Assembly (NCBI GenBank): GCA_017308345.1
Contig: JAFKFE010000247.1
Location: 1 to 13,252, forward strand
Length of the DNA stretch: 13,252 nt
Direction of reading: 5' to 3'
DNA from: Alphaproteobacteria bacterium
GTDB lineage: Bacteria; Pseudomonadota; Alphaproteobacteria; Rhizobiales; Rhizobiaceae
Shown here: piece after piece, positions 1,295-12,172 of the stretch
How the letters are laid out: every line of letters starts with the position of its first letter
Numbering within the stretch: position 1 is the stretch's first letter
Program-made: the position numbers and the translations under genes
The notes under the pieces: model-generated
What the model was told of the DNA's origin: nothing
The model's input: only the letters and a program-made list of their open reading frames with translations
Database searches by the model: none

Positions 1295-2479
1295 CTAGAT
1301 GGCCATCATGGCTGTGCTGCCCTGCATTGCGGCCGCCTTCAGTGCTTCAAAGTTTGCGATATAGCCCTGGGCGCCTTCGACCGTCGTGGTCAGGCTGGCG
1401 CCGATCGCCGCATAACGCGCCGCATCCGCCAGCGGCGCGCCGTGCAACCAGAGGCTGAGGAAGATGCCGGCAAAGCTGTCGCCCGCACCGGTCGCGTCGA
1501 CGCGATCGACGGGAAGGGCGGGCACCTCGATCTGGGGGCCGCCATTGGCCGGGAAGACGACCGCGCCGAATTCGCCGAGCGTCAGCACAACCGTTCCACG
1601 CGGCCGCACGCGAGACAGTATCTGCCTGGTGTCTTCGATCATGGTCGCCATCCGGGCCCGCAAATCGAAGATTTCCCGTATCGTCACATCGTTGATGAAG
1701 GTCAGATCGATCTGCCCGATCATCTGGGTGAAGACTTCCGGCTTGCGCGCGCTTCTGGGAAGGCCGGCGGAATGCAGGCTCACCTTCCAGCCCGCCTGGT
1801 GAAAGCGCGCGATGGAGGCGGTCATCGTTTCATAGTGAAAGCCTTCGATGTGGAGGCAGGCAGGGCGCTGCTCCGGCTCGATGACCAGATTGGCGGTCAG
1901 ATCGACTTCGCCCAGTTCGAATGGCTCGCTGATGATCGTGCGGCTGCCATTGCGCTCGATGATCACGATCGCCTGCGACAATCGATTGTTGGGCGTGCTG
2001 CGGATCGGCAGGGCGTGGACGCCAAGTTTCGCAAGCTCGCGAAGCGCCCAGTCGCTTTCGGGATCCTCGCCGACGGCCGTCGCCAGTTCCACGTCGAGAG
2101 CGTAGGGCGCGCCGACACCGGCCGCGGCTACGGCAAGGTTGGCGGCGGGGCCGCCCAGGGCCTTCTCGATATGGCTGGCCGTGATGCGGTCGTCCCTGTG
2201 CGGCAGCACCTCGACCCGGCACAGGAAGTCGACGCTGACCCGGCCTGCCACCAGGAGCCTCGGCAAGTGATCGAGATTCTTTTGCCTTGCGGGGAGGCGG
2301 CCCGGTAGCGACCGCGCGAAGGAGCTCGGCCGGTACATCAGCGCCGCGATCGCCTTTTCGATGCGGTCGCGAGTGCCGTCCTTCAAGCCCGCGGTGCCAT
2401 TGATGAAGTTCGATACCGTTCCGATCGAAACACCGGCGGTTCGCGCGACATCGGCGATGGTGGGACGCTTGCGGGCCAA
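1295..2479 (-). CDS. LacI-type DNA-binding domain fused to a PfkB/ribokinase-family sugar kinase
   Basis: A 394-residue fusion. Residues 5-60 are a LacI-family headpiece: helix-turn-helix IADVARTAGVSIGTVSNFING at 8-28, then a hinge helix with the SFARSL motif. In place of the usual periplasmic-binding-like sensor there is, after a linker at about 60-72, a complete PfkB kinase at about 73-385. It has the first signature GGPAANLAVAAAGVG at 109-123 and the second signature DATGAGDSFAG at 328-338, with catalytic base Asp334. The likely role is to phosphorylate an imported sugar with ATP and to couple substrate or product binding to repression of its own operon; that coupling is inference. The start is TTG at 2479: AGGA lies 8 nt upstream, and the sequence MARKRPTIADVA is a normal LacI beginning. 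A LacI-like operator lies 15-28 bp upstream. The amidotransferase-like gene and sugar ABC ATPase follow on the same strand. Substrate unknown; both domains are clear. Confidence 0.93.
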   Translation of the reverse strand: MARKRPTIADVARTAGVSIGTVSNFINGTAGLKDGTRDRIEKAIAALMYRPSSFARSLPGRLPARQKNLDHLPRLLVAGRVSVDFLCRVEVLPHRDDRITASHIEKALGGPAANLAVAAAGVGAPYALDVELATAVGEDPESDWALRELAKLGVHALPIRSTPNNRLSQAIVIIERNGSRTIISEPFELGEVDLTANLVIEPEQRPACLHIEGFHYETMTASIARFHQAGWKVSLHSAGLPRSARKPEVFTQMIGQIDLTFINDVTIREIFDLRARMATMIEDTRQILSRVRPRGTVVLTLGEFGAVVFPANGGPQIEVPALPVDRVDATGAGDSFAGIFLSLWLHGAPLADAARYAAIGASLTTTVEGAQGYIANFEALKAAAMQGSTAMMAI

Positions 2480-2493
2480 TTGCTCAATCCTGA

Positions 2494-2507
2494 TTGAAGC
2501 GTTTCAA
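2494..2507. promoter_or_regulatory. LacI-family operator candidate
   Basis: TTGAAGCGTTTCAA has 5-bp inverted arms TTGAA/TTCAA around a GCGT centre, close to the LacI-family pattern of a palindrome with a central CG. It lies 15 bp upstream of the TTG start of the LacI-kinase fusion and next to its ribosome site, so binding would block transcription or ribosome loading. Autoregulation is inference. Confidence 0.55.
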
Positions 2508-2611
2508 CGCTAGCAATGCCGCCGGCACGGCTCAACGAAATCGTTTTCCAAAATCGGTGATCGGATCAGATTCTGCCGACAAATGAACCTAAGAACGAGG
2601 AATTTTCTAAA

Positions 2612-2641
2612 ATCATATTTCTAAAATTGAACAATTTTCAA
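2612..2641 (-). promoter_or_regulatory. Sigma-70-like promoter candidate for the repressor-kinase operon
   Basis: On the minus strand a -35 TTGAAA (2636-2641) and a -10 TATGAT (2612-2617) are separated by 18 bp, in an AT-rich stretch that stands out from the GC-rich surroundings. Transcription would begin near 2605, leaving a leader of about 125 nt that contains the operator candidate. The -35 overlaps a second TTGAA-N5-TTCAA inverted pair (2627-2641). Confidence 0.45.
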
Positions 2642-7305: not shown

Positions 7306-7701
7306 TTGACGGCGCCTGAACGCGAAAGATCGATACTGCCGCCGGTCAGGACCGCTTTTGCGGGCCTGATGGCGCTGCTCATGCTCGCGCTGCTGGGCTT
7401 CGCCCAGGCCGAAATCTCCGCGTCGGCCGTTTCGCTCCCGGGCGGCTCCAGCATCAGCGCCGCGCGCCAGGGCGATGCGGTTGCGCTGCTCAGAACCGCC
7501 GGCAAGGCGCAGGCGCTAGAGGTCCGGGCCAGCCGGCCGAACCCGATAAAGCTGGTGAGCGGCAATCCCGGCGCGCTGGCGCCCGCATCCGATTTCCTGA
7601 TCATCGGCCAGGCCTTGCCGGCCGAGATGGGCGTCGCGTCCGTATCGGGAAGTGCTGCAGCTTCGCGCGCCAACCAGCCACGCGCGCCGCCCGCCGCGTA
7701 A
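7306..7701 (+). CDS. Small exported or membrane-anchored protein of unknown function
   Basis: A 131-residue protein I do not recognise. The start is TTG at 7306, chosen because GGAG lies 6 nt upstream and because it gives a proper signal sequence. That sequence has a charged start (TAPERERSILPPVR), then the hydrophobic core TAFAGLMALLMLALLGF with a possible cut after AQA. The rest is low-complexity, rich in Ala, Ser, Gly and Pro, without Cys or recognisable motifs, and ends SRANQPRAPPAA. An ATG at 7369 is in frame but would cut the signal short. It diverges from map and precedes the small membrane-protein gene by 113 bp. The inverted pair GACGGCC/GGCCGTC at 7763-7779, 61 bp after the stop, is a weak terminator candidate. 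Confidence 0.6.
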   Translation: MTAPERERSILPPVRTAFAGLMALLMLALLGFAQAEISASAVSLPGGSSISAARQGDAVALLRTAGKAQALEVRASRPNPIKLVSGNPGALAPASDFLIIGQALPAEMGVASVSGSAAASRANQPRAPPAA

Positions 7702-7762
7702 AGCCCCGGCCGCCAAGCGCGGCATTCAAATCAAAGACATTCCTTCGCGTCGCGATCCGGCG

Positions 7763-7779
7763 ACGGCCGCTGGCCGTCC
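7763..7779 (+). terminator. Weak hairpin between two small genes
   Basis: GACGGCC and GGCCGTC pair perfectly around a GCT loop, 61 bp after the stop at 7701 and 35 bp before the ATG at 7815. No T-run follows, so termination is uncertain. Confidence 0.25.
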
Positions 7780-7814
7780 GCCGGTCGCGTGCGCGTCAGT
7801 TCGGATTTCCATCA

Positions 7815-8051
7815 ATGCAACGCATCAAGACGTTCAAGACACTCACCCGGGCGGCCGCGGCCGCCTCCTTTCTGGCGGTTCAGGCAGTCATCTGCATCGG
7901 CACCGTCTACTGGGCCGTTGCCGCCACGCTGCGGATGGAAGGAACGGCGGCGATCGTGCTCGGCGCCATCTTCGCGCTCCCATCCGCCTATGTGCTGATG
8001 GTGGTCACCCGCATGGCCTACGACGCCGAGACCGACCCGGCCAACCAGTAG
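7815..8051 (+). CDS. Small inner-membrane protein with two predicted helices
   Basis: A 78-residue protein of unknown function. After the basic start MQRIKTFKTLTRA come two hydrophobic segments: about residues 14-37 (AAAASFLAVQAVICIGTVYWAVA) and about 43-66 (GTAAIVLGAIFALPSAYVLMVV). A short acidic tail, DAETDPANQ, follows. The pattern suggests a hairpin in the membrane with both ends in the cytoplasm. A GGA about 10 nt before the ATG is a weak ribosome site. A strong inverted repeat follows the stop codon, which supports a real transcription unit ending here. The gene is co-oriented with the ABC transporter genes, but that repeat separates it from them. Confidence 0.7.
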   Translation: MQRIKTFKTLTRAAAAASFLAVQAVICIGTVYWAVAATLRMEGTAAIVLGAIFALPSAYVLMVVTRMAYDAETDPANQ

Positions 8052-8079
8052 CGCCGATGATACGGAACAGGACAGGGGG

Positions 8080-8106
8080 CAGGGCGACGCGGGTTGCGTC
8101 GCCCTG
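8080..8106 (+). terminator. Strong terminator-like hairpin
   Basis: CAGGGCGACGC (8080-8090) and GCGTCGCCCTG (8096-8106) form a perfect 11-bp stem with a GGGTT loop, 28 bp after the stop at 8051. The bases that follow (TCACACAATGG) are not T-rich, so it may be a terminator of the GC-rich alphaproteobacterial kind or an RNA-stabilising stem. Confidence 0.6.
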
Positions 8107-8197
8107 TCACACAATGGTTATCCTGCGGCCTTACTCAGGTTTTCCAGCCCCGGCGCTTGCCGGACTTTCTTCAGCTCGATCAAGAACAGGTACTTCC

Positions 8198-9172
8198 ATG
8201 CGCCAGATCGTTCTCGCCGCCCTATTGCTGGCATCCACCGTGGCGGGCGCCGCCGCCGCTGACGGCACGCTGGTGCTCTACACCAGCCAGCCCAACACCG
8301 ACGCCCAGCAGACGGTCGACGCCTTCATGGCGAAGAATCCAGGCATCAAGGTCGACTGGGTGCGCGACGGCACGCCGAAGATCCTGGCCAAGCTCCATGC
8401 CGAGATCGAGGCCGGCCAGCCGCAGGCCGACGTGCTTCTGATCGCCGATGTCGTGACCATGGAGGGCCTCAAGAAGGAAGGCCGGCTGCTCGCCTATCCG
8501 GAGGCCAAGGTCGATGGTCTCGACGCGGCGCTTTACGACAAGGACAAGACCTATTTCTCGACCAAGCTGATCACCACCGGCATCGTCTACAACACCAAGG
8601 CGCCTTTCGTACCGACGAGCTGGGAAGACCTGAAGAAGCCGGAAGCCAAGGGCCTTATTGCGATGCCCAGCCCGCTGACCTCGGGCGCGGCGATGATCCA
8701 TACGGTGACGCTGACGGGCAGCCTGCCGGAGGGCTGGGACTATTACGGCGCGCTGGCCAAGAACGGCGCGCAGGCCAGCGGCGGCAATGGCGACGTGCTC
8801 AAGGCCGTCAGCGGCGGCGACAAGCTGTTCGGCATGATCGTCGACTACATGCCGATCCGCGAGAAGGCCAAGGGCGCGCCGGTCGACTTCGTCTTCCCGA
8901 AGGAAGGCGTGTCCGCCGTCACCGAGCCGGTCGCGATCCTCTCGACCGCCAAGAACCAGGAGGCCGCCAAGGCGTTTGTCGACTTCCTCCTGTCGAAGGA
9001 CGGGCAGGAAGTGGCGGCCAAGATGGGCTACATCCCGGCGCGCGCCGACGTCGCGCTGCCGGCCGGCTATCCGGACCGCGCCTCGATCAAGGTGCTCGGT
9101 TATGATGCGGCGGCCGCGCTCGCCAACGATGCGCAGAACAAGGAAAAGTTCAGCGCGGTGATGAGCCAGTAG
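8198..9172 (+). CDS. ABC transporter periplasmic substrate-binding protein (ferric/2-AEP/sugar-phosphate superfamily)
   Basis: A 324-residue binding protein. The signal peptide is MRQIVLAALLLASTVAGAAAA with the mature end at DGTLVLYTSQPN. The mature protein follows the FbpA/AfuA/PhnS pattern: YTSQPNTDAQQTVDAFMAKNP, then IKVDWVRDGTPKIL, QADVLLIADV, and the C-terminal EPVAILSTAKNQEAAKAFVDFLLS. The double Tyr that grips iron in true ferric-binding proteins is not evident; the corresponding segment reads IVDYMPIREKAKG. A ligand other than Fe(III) is therefore likely, for example 2-aminoethylphosphonate or a sugar phosphate. The ATG at 8198 has AGG 7 nt upstream; the longer open frame back to 7652 is an artefact. 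The permease gene begins 17 bp after the stop, so the two are co-transcribed. The ATPase gene lies opposite, beyond the permease. Confidence 0.88.
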   Translation: MRQIVLAALLLASTVAGAAAADGTLVLYTSQPNTDAQQTVDAFMAKNPGIKVDWVRDGTPKILAKLHAEIEAGQPQADVLLIADVVTMEGLKKEGRLLAYPEAKVDGLDAALYDKDKTYFSTKLITTGIVYNTKAPFVPTSWEDLKKPEAKGLIAMPSPLTSGAAMIHTVTLTGSLPEGWDYYGALAKNGAQASGGNGDVLKAVSGGDKLFGMIVDYMPIREKAKGAPVDFVFPKEGVSAVTEPVAILSTAKNQEAAKAFVDFLLSKDGQEVAAKMGYIPARADVALPAGYPDRASIKVLGYDAAAALANDAQNKEKFSAVMSQ

Positions 9173-9189
9173 CGGCCCGGAAGGGAGCT

Positions 9190-10935
9190 TTGGCCATCGC
9201 GGAACATCGCGTCGCCGGGTCGGACCCGGCATTGCCGCAGGCGGGCGGTTTCGCGCCGTCGGGGCTGATATCCGGCCAGCGTCTGTCGGCGCTGGCCGTT
9301 TTGCTCATCATCGCCGTGCTCAGCCTGTTGCCGATGGCGCGTCTCGTGCTTGCGGCGATCGCGCCAGGCGGCGAGGCCGATTTCACCGCCTTCGCCGGGC
9401 GGCTTGCCAGCCCCGCCGCGCTCAAGGCGATGTGGCACACGCTGGACACGGCCTTCTTCGGCGCGCTGCTGGCGCTTTGTCTCGGCATTCCGTTCGCCAT
9501 CGCGGTGACGATGACCGATCTGCCGGGACGGAAAGTCCTGGGGTTTCTGCTGCTGTTGCCGCTGATGATCGCGCCGCAGGTCACGGCGCTCGCCTGGCTG
9601 CATCTCTTCGGCCCGTCGAGCACGCTACTCGGCATGCTTGGCCTAGCGCCTCCGCCCGGCAGCGGCAATCCGATGCTTGGCCGTGGCGGCATCATCCTTC
9701 TTTATGGCGTCCAGCACGCGCCGATCGTCTTCATCACCATGCGGGCAGGGCTGTCGCGCGTGCCACGCGACCTGATGGAGGCGGCGCGGTCCTGCGGCGC
9801 GCGGCCGCTCGGCGTGCTGCGGACCATCGTGCTGCCTGTCGTGCGGCCCTATGTGGTGGCCGCCGCGGCACTTGCCTTCGTCTCCGGCGTCGGCAATTTC
9901 GGCATTCCGGCGCTGCTCGGCATGCCCGTCAATTACCTGACGCTGCCGACCTTGATCTATCAGGATCTGTCGAGCTTCGGTCCGAGCGTGCTGCCACAGA
10001 TCGCGGCGCTCTCGGTGCTGGTCGGCGCCCTGGCGCTGACCGGCATGGTGTTCCAGTCGCTGGCGTTGCGCGGCGCCGGACATCGCATCGTTGCCGGCAT
10101 GCCGGCGAAATTCGAGCTCGGACGTTCCCGCATGCCGCTCGCCTGCGTCGGCTGGCTGGTCATCGGCCTGATCCTCATCCTGCCGGCCTGCGCGCTGCTG
10201 GCGACGTCGCTGGTGCCGTCCTTCGGCGTGCCCCTCGGCCTGCGGACGGCAACGATCGCCAACTATACGGAAGTGCTTGTCCGGCAGGCATCCACGGTGC
10301 GCGCCTTCCGCAATTCGCTGCTTTTTGCCGGCGGCGCGGCGCTGATCCTCGCGCTCGGCGTCATTCCGATGGCGGCGCGGCTCGAGCGTTTCGACAGGCG
10401 CTGGCGGCGCGTGCTCGGCGGCATTGTCGACCTGCCTTACACGATCCCCGGCGTGGTGCTGGCGATCGCCTGCATCCTTCTGTTCCTGCGGCCGCTGCCG
10501 CTGATCGGCAGCCTCTACGCGACCGCGTCGATCATCCTGGTCGCTTACGCGATGCGCTTTCTGACACTGGCGATGAAACCGGTGACGACGGCCGTCGGGC
10601 AGATTCCGCGCGATCTCGAAGAGGCGGCGGCGGTGTCCGGCGCCGGGCCGTTCCGGCGGCTGTGGACAATCACCGCGCCGCTCGCGGCGCCCGCGGCCGT
10701 GGCGGGCGGGCTGCTGGTGTTCATGAGCGCTTTCAACGAATTGACGGTCTCGGCGCTGTTGTGGTCCAGCGGCAAGGAAACGCTCGGCGTTGTGCTGTAC
10801 AGCCTCGAAGAGGCAGGGCTTGGCACGCAGGCGGCGGCAATCGCGGTATCCACGATCGTCGTCGTGATCGCGCTGCTTCTGGCGCTCGACCGGTTCGGGC
10901 GACGCTTGCCAGCAGGGGTGTTGCCCTGGCGCTGA
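9190..10935 (+). CDS. ABC transporter permease, two fused membrane domains (FbpB/PhnU2-like)
   Basis: A 581-residue inner-membrane permease made of two fused BPD_transp_1 units, about 12 helices in all, as in ferric and 2-aminoethylphosphonate importers. Each half carries the cytoplasmic EAA loop that docks on the ATPase: MEAARSCGARPLGVLRTIVLP from about residue 196, and LEEAAAVSGAGPFRRLWTITA from about residue 476. The start is TTG at 9190; GGAAGG at 9179-9184 is 5 nt upstream, and no ATG precedes the first helix. It lies 17 bp after the binding-protein gene, so translation may be coupled. Its stop (10933-10935) is 2 bp from the stop of the ATPase gene on the opposite strand. An antisense frame of over 400 codons here is only a shadow of GC-rich coding. 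Confidence 0.92.
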   Translation: MAIAEHRVAGSDPALPQAGGFAPSGLISGQRLSALAVLLIIAVLSLLPMARLVLAAIAPGGEADFTAFAGRLASPAALKAMWHTLDTAFFGALLALCLGIPFAIAVTMTDLPGRKVLGFLLLLPLMIAPQVTALAWLHLFGPSSTLLGMLGLAPPPGSGNPMLGRGGIILLYGVQHAPIVFITMRAGLSRVPRDLMEAARSCGARPLGVLRTIVLPVVRPYVVAAAALAFVSGVGNFGIPALLGMPVNYLTLPTLIYQDLSSFGPSVLPQIAALSVLVGALALTGMVFQSLALRGAGHRIVAGMPAKFELGRSRMPLACVGWLVIGLILILPACALLATSLVPSFGVPLGLRTATIANYTEVLVRQASTVRAFRNSLLFAGGAALILALGVIPMAARLERFDRRWRRVLGGIVDLPYTIPGVVLAIACILLFLRPLPLIGSLYATASIILVAYAMRFLTLAMKPVTTAVGQIPRDLEEAAAVSGAGPFRRLWTITAPLAAPAAVAGGLLVFMSAFNELTVSALLWSSGKETLGVVLYSLEEAGLGTQAAAIAVSTIVVVIALLLALDRFGRRLPAGVLPWR

Positions 10936-10937
10936 TG

Positions 10938-11981
10938 TCAGGCGCTCGGCACCACCCAAGCGTCGGACACGGCGACATGCACGCGCTGCCCCGCCGCCAG
11001 CGCTTCGGCGCTGTCGACCAGCAGATGCTGTCCAGCTTCGCCGAGCGCCAGCCGCAGCTCATGCACCGGCCCACGGTAGACGCTGTCCAGCACTGTCGCC
11101 GGCAGGCCCTCGTCCGCGATGCGCAAGGCTTCCGGCCGCAGCAGGACCTTGACCGGGCCGGCCGGCTTGTCGTGACTGCGCGCCGTGAGCCGGTGACCCG
11201 CGACATCGATGATGGAGGCCCGGTCCGAATGGCCGACGCTGTTGCCTGAGACGAGGCTGCCGCGACCGACGAAACCGGCAACCGCGGCGTCGGTGGGAGA
11301 GCGATAGATCTCCTGCGGCGCCGCCGCCTGCAGCAGCCGGCCCTTGCTCATCACGGCGACGCGGTCGGCAAGCGCCAGGGCCTCGGCCTGGTCATGCGTG
11401 ACATAGACGATGGTCGCGCCGGTGCGGCGATGGATATCGCGGAAGGCATCCACCATGGCCGCGCGCAGATGCATGTCGAGATTGGCGAGCGGCTCGTCGA
11501 ACAGGATTATGCCGGACTCGGCGACCAGGCAGCGGGCGAGCGCCACGCGCTGCCTCTGGCCGCCCGACAGCTCGTCGATGCGGCGTTTCCCGAAGCCGCC
11601 CAACCCGACGATATCGAGCACCGCCGCGACGCGGGCAGGGATGCCGGCGGAGGCTGCATGCCTGGCCTTCAGCGGATAGGCGACATTTTCGGCGACATCC
11701 ATGTGCGGCCACAGCGCATAGGATTGGAAGACGACGCCGACATTGCGCGCCTCCGGCGGCAACTGCCGCTTCGGGTCGGCGACAAGCGCGTCGCCAAGGA
11801 ACACGCGGCCTTCGCTTGGCGCCTCGAAGCCGGCGATAAGCCGCAGCATCGTCGTCTTGCCGCACCCCGAGGGACCGAGCAGCGCCGTGAAAGAGCCTTC
11901 CGGAAAGTCCAGCGAAACGCCGTCCAGCGCTGTCGTGCCGCCGTAGCGCTTGATGAGGGATTCGACCCGGATTTCGCTCAT
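10938..11981 (-). CDS. ABC transporter ATP-binding protein with TOBE-like tail
   Basis: A 347-residue ATPase that should power the transporter encoded opposite it. It has Walker A GPSGCGKTT (36-44), Q-loop Gln86 in VVFQSYALWPHM, signature LSGGQ (138-142), Walker B IILFDEP (158-164) and His196 of the H-loop (THDQAEA). After about residue 240 follows a C-terminal regulatory domain of the TOBE kind (LLRPEALRIADEGLPA, GPVHELRLALGE). I set the start at ATG 11981, since a normal N terminus MSEIRVESLIKRYGG begins there, with GGCGGA just upstream; the frame open to 12128 has no family resemblance. The gene converges on the permease with only TG between the stops, so it must have its own promoter. ATPases of this class are interchangeable enough that it may serve another importer too, but the neighbourhood argues for this one. 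Confidence 0.93.
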   Translation of the reverse strand: MSEIRVESLIKRYGGTTALDGVSLDFPEGSFTALLGPSGCGKTTMLRLIAGFEAPSEGRVFLGDALVADPKRQLPPEARNVGVVFQSYALWPHMDVAENVAYPLKARHAASAGIPARVAAVLDIVGLGGFGKRRIDELSGGQRQRVALARCLVAESGIILFDEPLANLDMHLRAAMVDAFRDIHRRTGATIVYVTHDQAEALALADRVAVMSKGRLLQAAAPQEIYRSPTDAAVAGFVGRGSLVSGNSVGHSDRASIIDVAGHRLTARSHDKPAGPVKVLLRPEALRIADEGLPATVLDSVYRGPVHELRLALGEAGQHLLVDSAEALAAGQRVHVAVSDAWVVPSA

Positions 11982-12010
11982 GTTCCGCCCATGACAGCTG
12001 CGCCGGCCCG

Positions 12011-12039
12011 GCAATACGTTGGAAATCTGCCATTGGCAA
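12011..12039 (-). promoter_or_regulatory. Promoter candidate for the ATPase gene, with overlapping palindrome
   Basis: On the minus strand TTGCCA (12034-12039) and TATTGC (12011-12016) are 17 bp apart, giving a leader of about 25 nt before the ATG at 11981. The 11-bp palindrome TGCCATTGGCA (12028-12038) overlaps the -35 and could be an operator. This gene needs its own promoter because of its orientation. Confidence 0.35.
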
Positions 12040-12172
12040 TGCACGTGGGGAGATACGCCAGTGAACCGATTGTTGACCGCACTGAGGTCACATTCCTGAG
12101 TCAGAAGGCCGCCAAAGCAACTTTTCACATCGAGCGGCGTTGCCGGGACTGCGCCAGTTCGGGAGACAGGGA

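Follow-up and report, generated by a model that had tools for sequence, protein, structure and literature searches.

A LacI-type DNA-binding head fused to a PfkB kinase fold as the putative autorepressor of a sugar-type ABC transporter operon

In a stretch of 13,252 nucleotides from a Mesorhizobium-like soil bacterium of the Rhizobiaceae (contig JAFKFE010000247.1 of assembly GCA_017308345.1; hereafter the window), a single open frame joins a LacI-type DNA-binding head to a PfkB-type kinase domain at the start of a sugar-type ABC transporter operon. Given that a plain LacI repressor takes its place in orthologous operons and that operator-like sites before the gene are conserved, the fusion is most likely a dedicated autorepressor. 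We hold it probable that the protein represses this one transporter operon, its own gene included, with the kinase-fold domain serving as the sensor.

The fusion gene (1295..2479, minus strand) encodes 394 residues from a TTG codon that occupies the same position as the ATG starts of its Rhizobium homologues. Pfam assigns residues 7-52 (2324..2461, minus strand) to the LacI helix-turn-helix (PF00356; E 8.1e-14, all 46 profile positions, 1-46) and residues 75-371 (1367..2257, minus strand) to PfkB (PF00294, ribokinase-like; E 2.9e-33, profile positions 4-296 of 302). The PfkB domain scores 115.9 bits versus a curated cut-off of 25.8, and both domains exceed their cut-offs. The stretch RPSSFARSLP (residues 50-59; 2303..2332, minus strand), compared by eye and by alignment with the hinge of LacI, is hinge-helix-like. 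No further Pfam domain was found in the fusion at E 0.001, the Peripla_BP effector and dimerisation domain included. The original prediction of a LacI head and a PfkB kinase in one polypeptide, the kinase replacing the usual effector domain, is thus borne out. Among solved structures, the C-terminal part has its best relatives in ribokinases and roughly the first 60 residues have theirs in heads of the LacI family; none of the 60 matches listed of 90 covers both. The 25 NCBIfam models listed of 31 are all of PfkB-kinase or LacI-family type, each below its cut-off. A structure model of the fusion has a mean pLDDT of 57.6 (16 rows) and is therefore too weak for pocket arguments; the 50 Foldseek matches listed for this low-confidence model are of PfkB/ribokinase type. 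Our working set comprises 28 loci with the full-length fusion (the window, L021-L035, L053-L055 and L068-L076) from Mesorhizobium, Rhizobium, further family members and Roseivivax, some of which may duplicate strains filed under other genome handles. Conserved stretches peculiar to the fusions lie around PHRDDR, LHIEG and SLHSAGLP.

The second gene of the operon encodes a GATase1_like protein (PF07090; 443..1279, minus strand, the start being probably at 1225 by homology), which is related to Salmonella STM1381 (PDB 3soz) and to 2gk3. It is followed by the sugar-type ABC transporter ATPase expected in the same operon, cut by the contig end (2..412, minus strand). These are the first three genes of an order, here called type A, that is found in 21 loci: fusion, GATase1_like, ABC ATPase, binding protein, two permeases and M20 deacylase. 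The near-identical locus L034, one of these 21, has all of them. In type B (L072-L076, 5 loci), the fusion is followed by ATPase, binding protein and two permeases. In four of these five loci (L072, L073, L075 and L076), the permeases are in turn followed by a stand-alone PfkB gene; none was matched in L074 at E 1e-15. In L076, the type B locus that was scanned, the kinase gene precedes genes for an IF-2B-type isomerase and then a SIS protein; the nearest NCBIfam models are ribose-1-phosphate kinase for the kinase and ribose-1,5-bisphosphate isomerase for the isomerase, both below cut-off. This operon end (L076:11176-14124), with its kinase-like, isomerase-like and SIS proteins all below NCBIfam cut-offs, has the look of a sugar pathway. 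The Roseivivax order is binding protein, permease, ATPase, fusion, ribokinase and TenA, with BtpA divergent, and a ribokinase/BtpA/TenA/M20 cluster also adjoins in L056 and L068. At L056:8001-8468 (Rhizobium sp. T1473), only residues 1-155 of the fusion were matched, beside the TenA/BtpA/ribokinase/M20 cluster. Elsewhere in the window (7652-12128), the plus strand carries genes for an iron-type ABC binding protein and a double permease, identified from their translations, and a minus-strand ABC ATPase gene is convergent on them.

From these neighbour genes, one might guess at a pentose or riboside-like ligand. We also considered AI-2, since the L034 binding protein finds its best PDB match in LsrB. 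About two of the six LsrB contact residues are kept in an alignment by eye, and AI-2 was set aside as substrate since most contact residues differ.

The fusion might instead be a trigger enzyme, that is, an active kinase that catalyses the first step of the pathway and leaves the operator during turnover, such that flux sets expression. We regard this as possible but, on balance, unlikely. It draws support from the type A operons, the window's included, inside which no second PfkB gene was matched, and is opposed by the separate kinase genes of four of the five type B operons and of Roseivivax. The exchange of the regulator between orthologous operons also bears on it. Searching 247 family genomes with the L034 binding protein (E 1e-85) found relatives in six; the window's own genome gave none because its contig ends before the gene. 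Four of the six genomes carry the fusion (G794, G825, G864 and G910). The other two, G818 and G916, carry the same six-gene operon without it (L084 and L085); there, a standard LacI repressor complete with its periplasmic-binding domain takes the regulator's place, divergent in L084 (L084:4039-5076) and leading the operon in L085 (L085:9628-10722). In L084, TTGAACCGGTTCAA lies between the LacI gene and the operon. No PfkB query matched the 15-kb stretch of either locus at E 1e-8; both genomes may have an unlinked kinase outside that stretch. Hence a plain repressor can accompany the operon, and a linked kinase can be missing from it. This finding, from two genomes, is the strongest argument that the role of the fusion in the operon is regulation, and it speaks against the trigger enzyme.

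The kinase motifs cut both ways. Asp334 of the GAGD motif (1478..1480, minus strand) was placed correctly in the original prediction as the catalytic residue; it does not vary among the 28 fusions, and neither do the GG motif, D84, T300/G302 and H94, R95, D97, R98, R166, E185, H210 and H236. The invariance of Asp334, the anion-hole GAG, the GG motif and D84 favours the trigger enzyme, and the invariant GAGD Asp leaves catalysis possible. By contrast, the glutamate of NxxE, the Mg/phosphate motif of PfkB kinases, is absent at +3 in all 28 fusions (N263-D-V-T266 in the window; 1682..1693, minus strand), while Asn263 is kept in 23. This absence counts against a pathway enzyme, albeit weakly. Among seven usable comparators (the set leaving aside own_L003 and own_L005 to L007), NxxE stands in four, Thr replaces the Asn in one, and the two kinases from type B operons read N-x-E; since two stand-alone operon kinases thus do without the exact motif, NxxE is a weak argument. 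Taken together, the missing glutamate and the plain-LacI operons favour a sensor over a pathway enzyme. Of the regulatory logic first proposed, autoregulation of the operon is upheld by the conserved sites described below, while the part in which flux through the kinase sets expression is disfavoured by these same two observations. As judged from its domains and motifs, the fusion is neither a complete LacI/GalR member, because the effector domain is absent, nor a typical PfkB enzyme, because NxxE is not kept. The kinase fold appears to be a ligand-binding domain under selection, perhaps with slow catalysis.

Both halves of the protein are under purifying selection in Mesorhizobium pairs. Comparing the window with five Mesorhizobium loci (L021, L024, L027, L030 and L032) gave dN/dS of 0.02-0.07 in the head, against 0.07-0.10 in the kinase part, a range of partners bounded by L034, which is all but identical, and by more distant pairs, which are near saturation. 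The 13-codon linker changes faster, with two to four times the dN of the kinase part. Furthermore, the helix-turn-helix residues I/L/V19, G20 and N24 are kept in 13 aligned fusion rows. Two annotated records, from R. etli 8C-3 and Roseivivax, name the gene product a PfkB family carbohydrate kinase. Such a name would suit a plain kinase with a vestigial DNA-binding head, the operon being regulated by another protein. Selection on the head, its kept residues and the operator-like palindrome found beside the gene in all 21 fusion-bearing genomes speak against this reading, and we consider it very improbable. The regulatory role may rather have been overlooked, as these records name the protein a kinase only.

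Two operator-like palindromes lie upstream of the fusion gene. The proximal one, TTGAAGCGTTTCAA (2494..2507), begins 28 bp before the start codon, and the centre of the distal one, TTGAACAATTTTCAA (2627..2641), lies 133.5 bp upstream of the centre of the proximal one. A tentative promoter, TTGAGC-N17-TAGCGT (2507..2535, minus strand), seen by eye and a weak match, touches the proximal palindrome; a scan with the consensus promoter picked TTGAAA-N18-TATGAT over the distal site and not this one. In an alignment of 16 upstream regions, two conserved elements stand out amid mostly divergent sequence. In 27 of 28 loci, a scan of the 400 bp upstream of the fusion gave both an exact TTGAA-N4-TTCAA palindrome, 26-30 bp from the start codon, and an exact TTGAA-N5-TTCAA palindrome beyond it; as many loci are close relatives, this conservation does not amount to 27 independent events. 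Roseivivax has neither within 400 bp upstream of the fusion, and by eye its operon start holds one palindrome with one mismatch. Elsewhere in the 487,035 bases of the 28 loci, the N4 form matched once and the N5 form never, and for the window's palindromes shuffled sequences give 0.00 and 0.01 expected matches.

The sites are likewise tied to the gene at the genome level. TTGAANCGNTTCAA stands beside the fusion in all 21 fusion-bearing genomes (12 from the search of relatives and 9 more from the family search); G046 and G1043 alone have another copy, and the reversed control pattern occurs in one of the 21. Among 20 fusion-less Mesorhizobium genomes, selected from those listed in the relatives' and order searches, four have one copy, which we take as background because the reversed control occurs in six. 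The second copies in G046 and G1043 (L093 and L105) are possible extra targets; a loose motif scan of these 3-kb loci found no LacI-type helix-turn-helix. The candidate sites support autoregulation of the transporter operon by the fusion. The centres of the paired palindromes are 84.5 bp apart in one locus, 93.5-95.5 bp in four and 131.5-136.5 bp in 22. Helical phasing was rejected as proof of looping, these spacings being suggestive at most; within type A (131.5-136.5 bp) they keep no strict helical phase, so looping is unproven.

The architecture recurs, in patches, well beyond the window. The genome counts are lower bounds (at most 4-18 candidates were scored per genome), and each includes the window's own genome. 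The full-length fusion occurs in at least 12 of 101 relatives' genomes, all of the same genus and 86-100% identical, and in at least 11 of 394 family genomes, spread over 8 of 109 genera. It occurs in at least 2 of 297 order genomes, where the other 6 matches are without the head, and in at least 2 of 398 phylum genomes, where the other 10 are; these 16 matches besides the two Mesorhizobium fusions begin at residue 54 or later. Among class genomes, it was found in at least 1 of 385, namely the window's own, at a threshold (1e-45) that would hide matches lacking the head. Of the 16 genome-collection loci, 15 hold the full-length fusion, and L036 matches the helix-turn-helix alone. The 117 matching plasmid records include fusions in Rhizobium sp. 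WYJ-E13, R. etli 8C-3 and Roseivivax marinus. Cover of at least 80% is also reached by one further record, from Deinococcus, whose match begins at residue 50, and the records of T1473 and T1470 give a short match to residues 1-155 only. Fusions of separate origin were sampled in the window's own phylum, and of 22 pattern matches in viral contigs none was confirmed. The fusion family is patchy and extends to the Rhodobacterales, there at 43-44% identity. In Rhizobium sp. WYJ-E13, the gene immediately before the fusion (L053:8834-9847) has a transposase-like translation, a hint of mobility. The window's assembly is fragmented (5.4 Mb in 1307 contigs, about 80% complete), which might have suggested that a sequencing or assembly error had fused two separate genes. 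We dismiss this explanation, which has next to no likelihood left, since all 28 loci, drawn from many assemblies, carry the fusion as one intact open frame.

These observations enable us to propose a model for the autorepressor. The LacI-type head would bind the two palindromes before its own gene, the proximal one near the start codon and the distal one about 85-95 or 134 bp upstream, a layout like that of a two-operator looping repressor. Dimerisation would fall to the PfkB domain, which has replaced the one of periplasmic-binding type, and so would recognition of the imported sugar-like compound, probably with ATP bound as well. When the kinase domain closes, the spacing of the heads would change and the protein would let go of the DNA. 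We infer, in this scheme, DNA binding, looping, dimerisation, the ligand, the direction of the response, release and the secondary rank of catalysis. The invariance of the GAGD loop, the GG motif and D84 would seem to be more than a pure binder needs, which weighs against the autorepressor with a sensing kinase fold. We also put forward, tentatively and as rather doubtful, a LacI-headed family in which the active kinase is enzyme and repressor at once and turnover moves the heads on the two operators. If so, the cell would read pathway flux, and not sugar concentration, in one polypeptide.

The classic LacI repressor pairs a DNA-binding head with a sugar-binding domain akin to transport proteins. 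In the fusion, a head of this type is carried by a sugar kinase instead, in a conserved family with a two-site layout of its own. The family offers a natural experiment on how far one sensor domain can stand in for another, and in it an enzyme fold from metabolism may have turned into a gene switch. The layout from operator to sensor is simple enough for direct bench tests. Among known systems, the LacI/GalR family (LacI, PurR, RbsR, CcpA) resembles the fusion in its N-terminal helix-turn-helix and hinge-like stretch, in an operator-like palindrome with a central CG and in its place as first gene of a sugar-type ABC operon, and true LacI repressors replace the fusion in the two orthologous operons; it differs in having a periplasmic-binding-type effector and dimerisation domain where the fusion has PfkB. 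Ribokinase-type PfkB kinases come closest to the C-terminal domain in both sequence and fold, at 16-28% identity among the 50 Foldseek matches listed, but the fusion is without their NxxE glutamate. The ROK-family repressors NagC and Mlc likewise reuse a sugar-kinase fold as the sensor of a repressor, although both their kinase fold and their helix-turn-helix are unlike those of the fusion. Names such as 'bifunctional ribokinase/ribose operon repressor' also appear in databases. E. coli YeiI (362 residues; HTH_24 1-48, PfkB 58-348) comes close, with an N-terminal DNA-binding head on a PfkB domain and a similar length; its gene neighbours include nucleoside and pseudouridine genes. Its head, however, is a winged helix-turn-helix (HTH_24) and not a LacI one, the fusion has no HTH_24 match at E 0.001, and the PfkB match of YeiI is stronger than that of the fusion (231 versus 116 bits). 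DNA-binding heads on PfkB kinases thus already exist as a kind, and the LacI head on PfkB appears to be a variant of this known kind with a different head.
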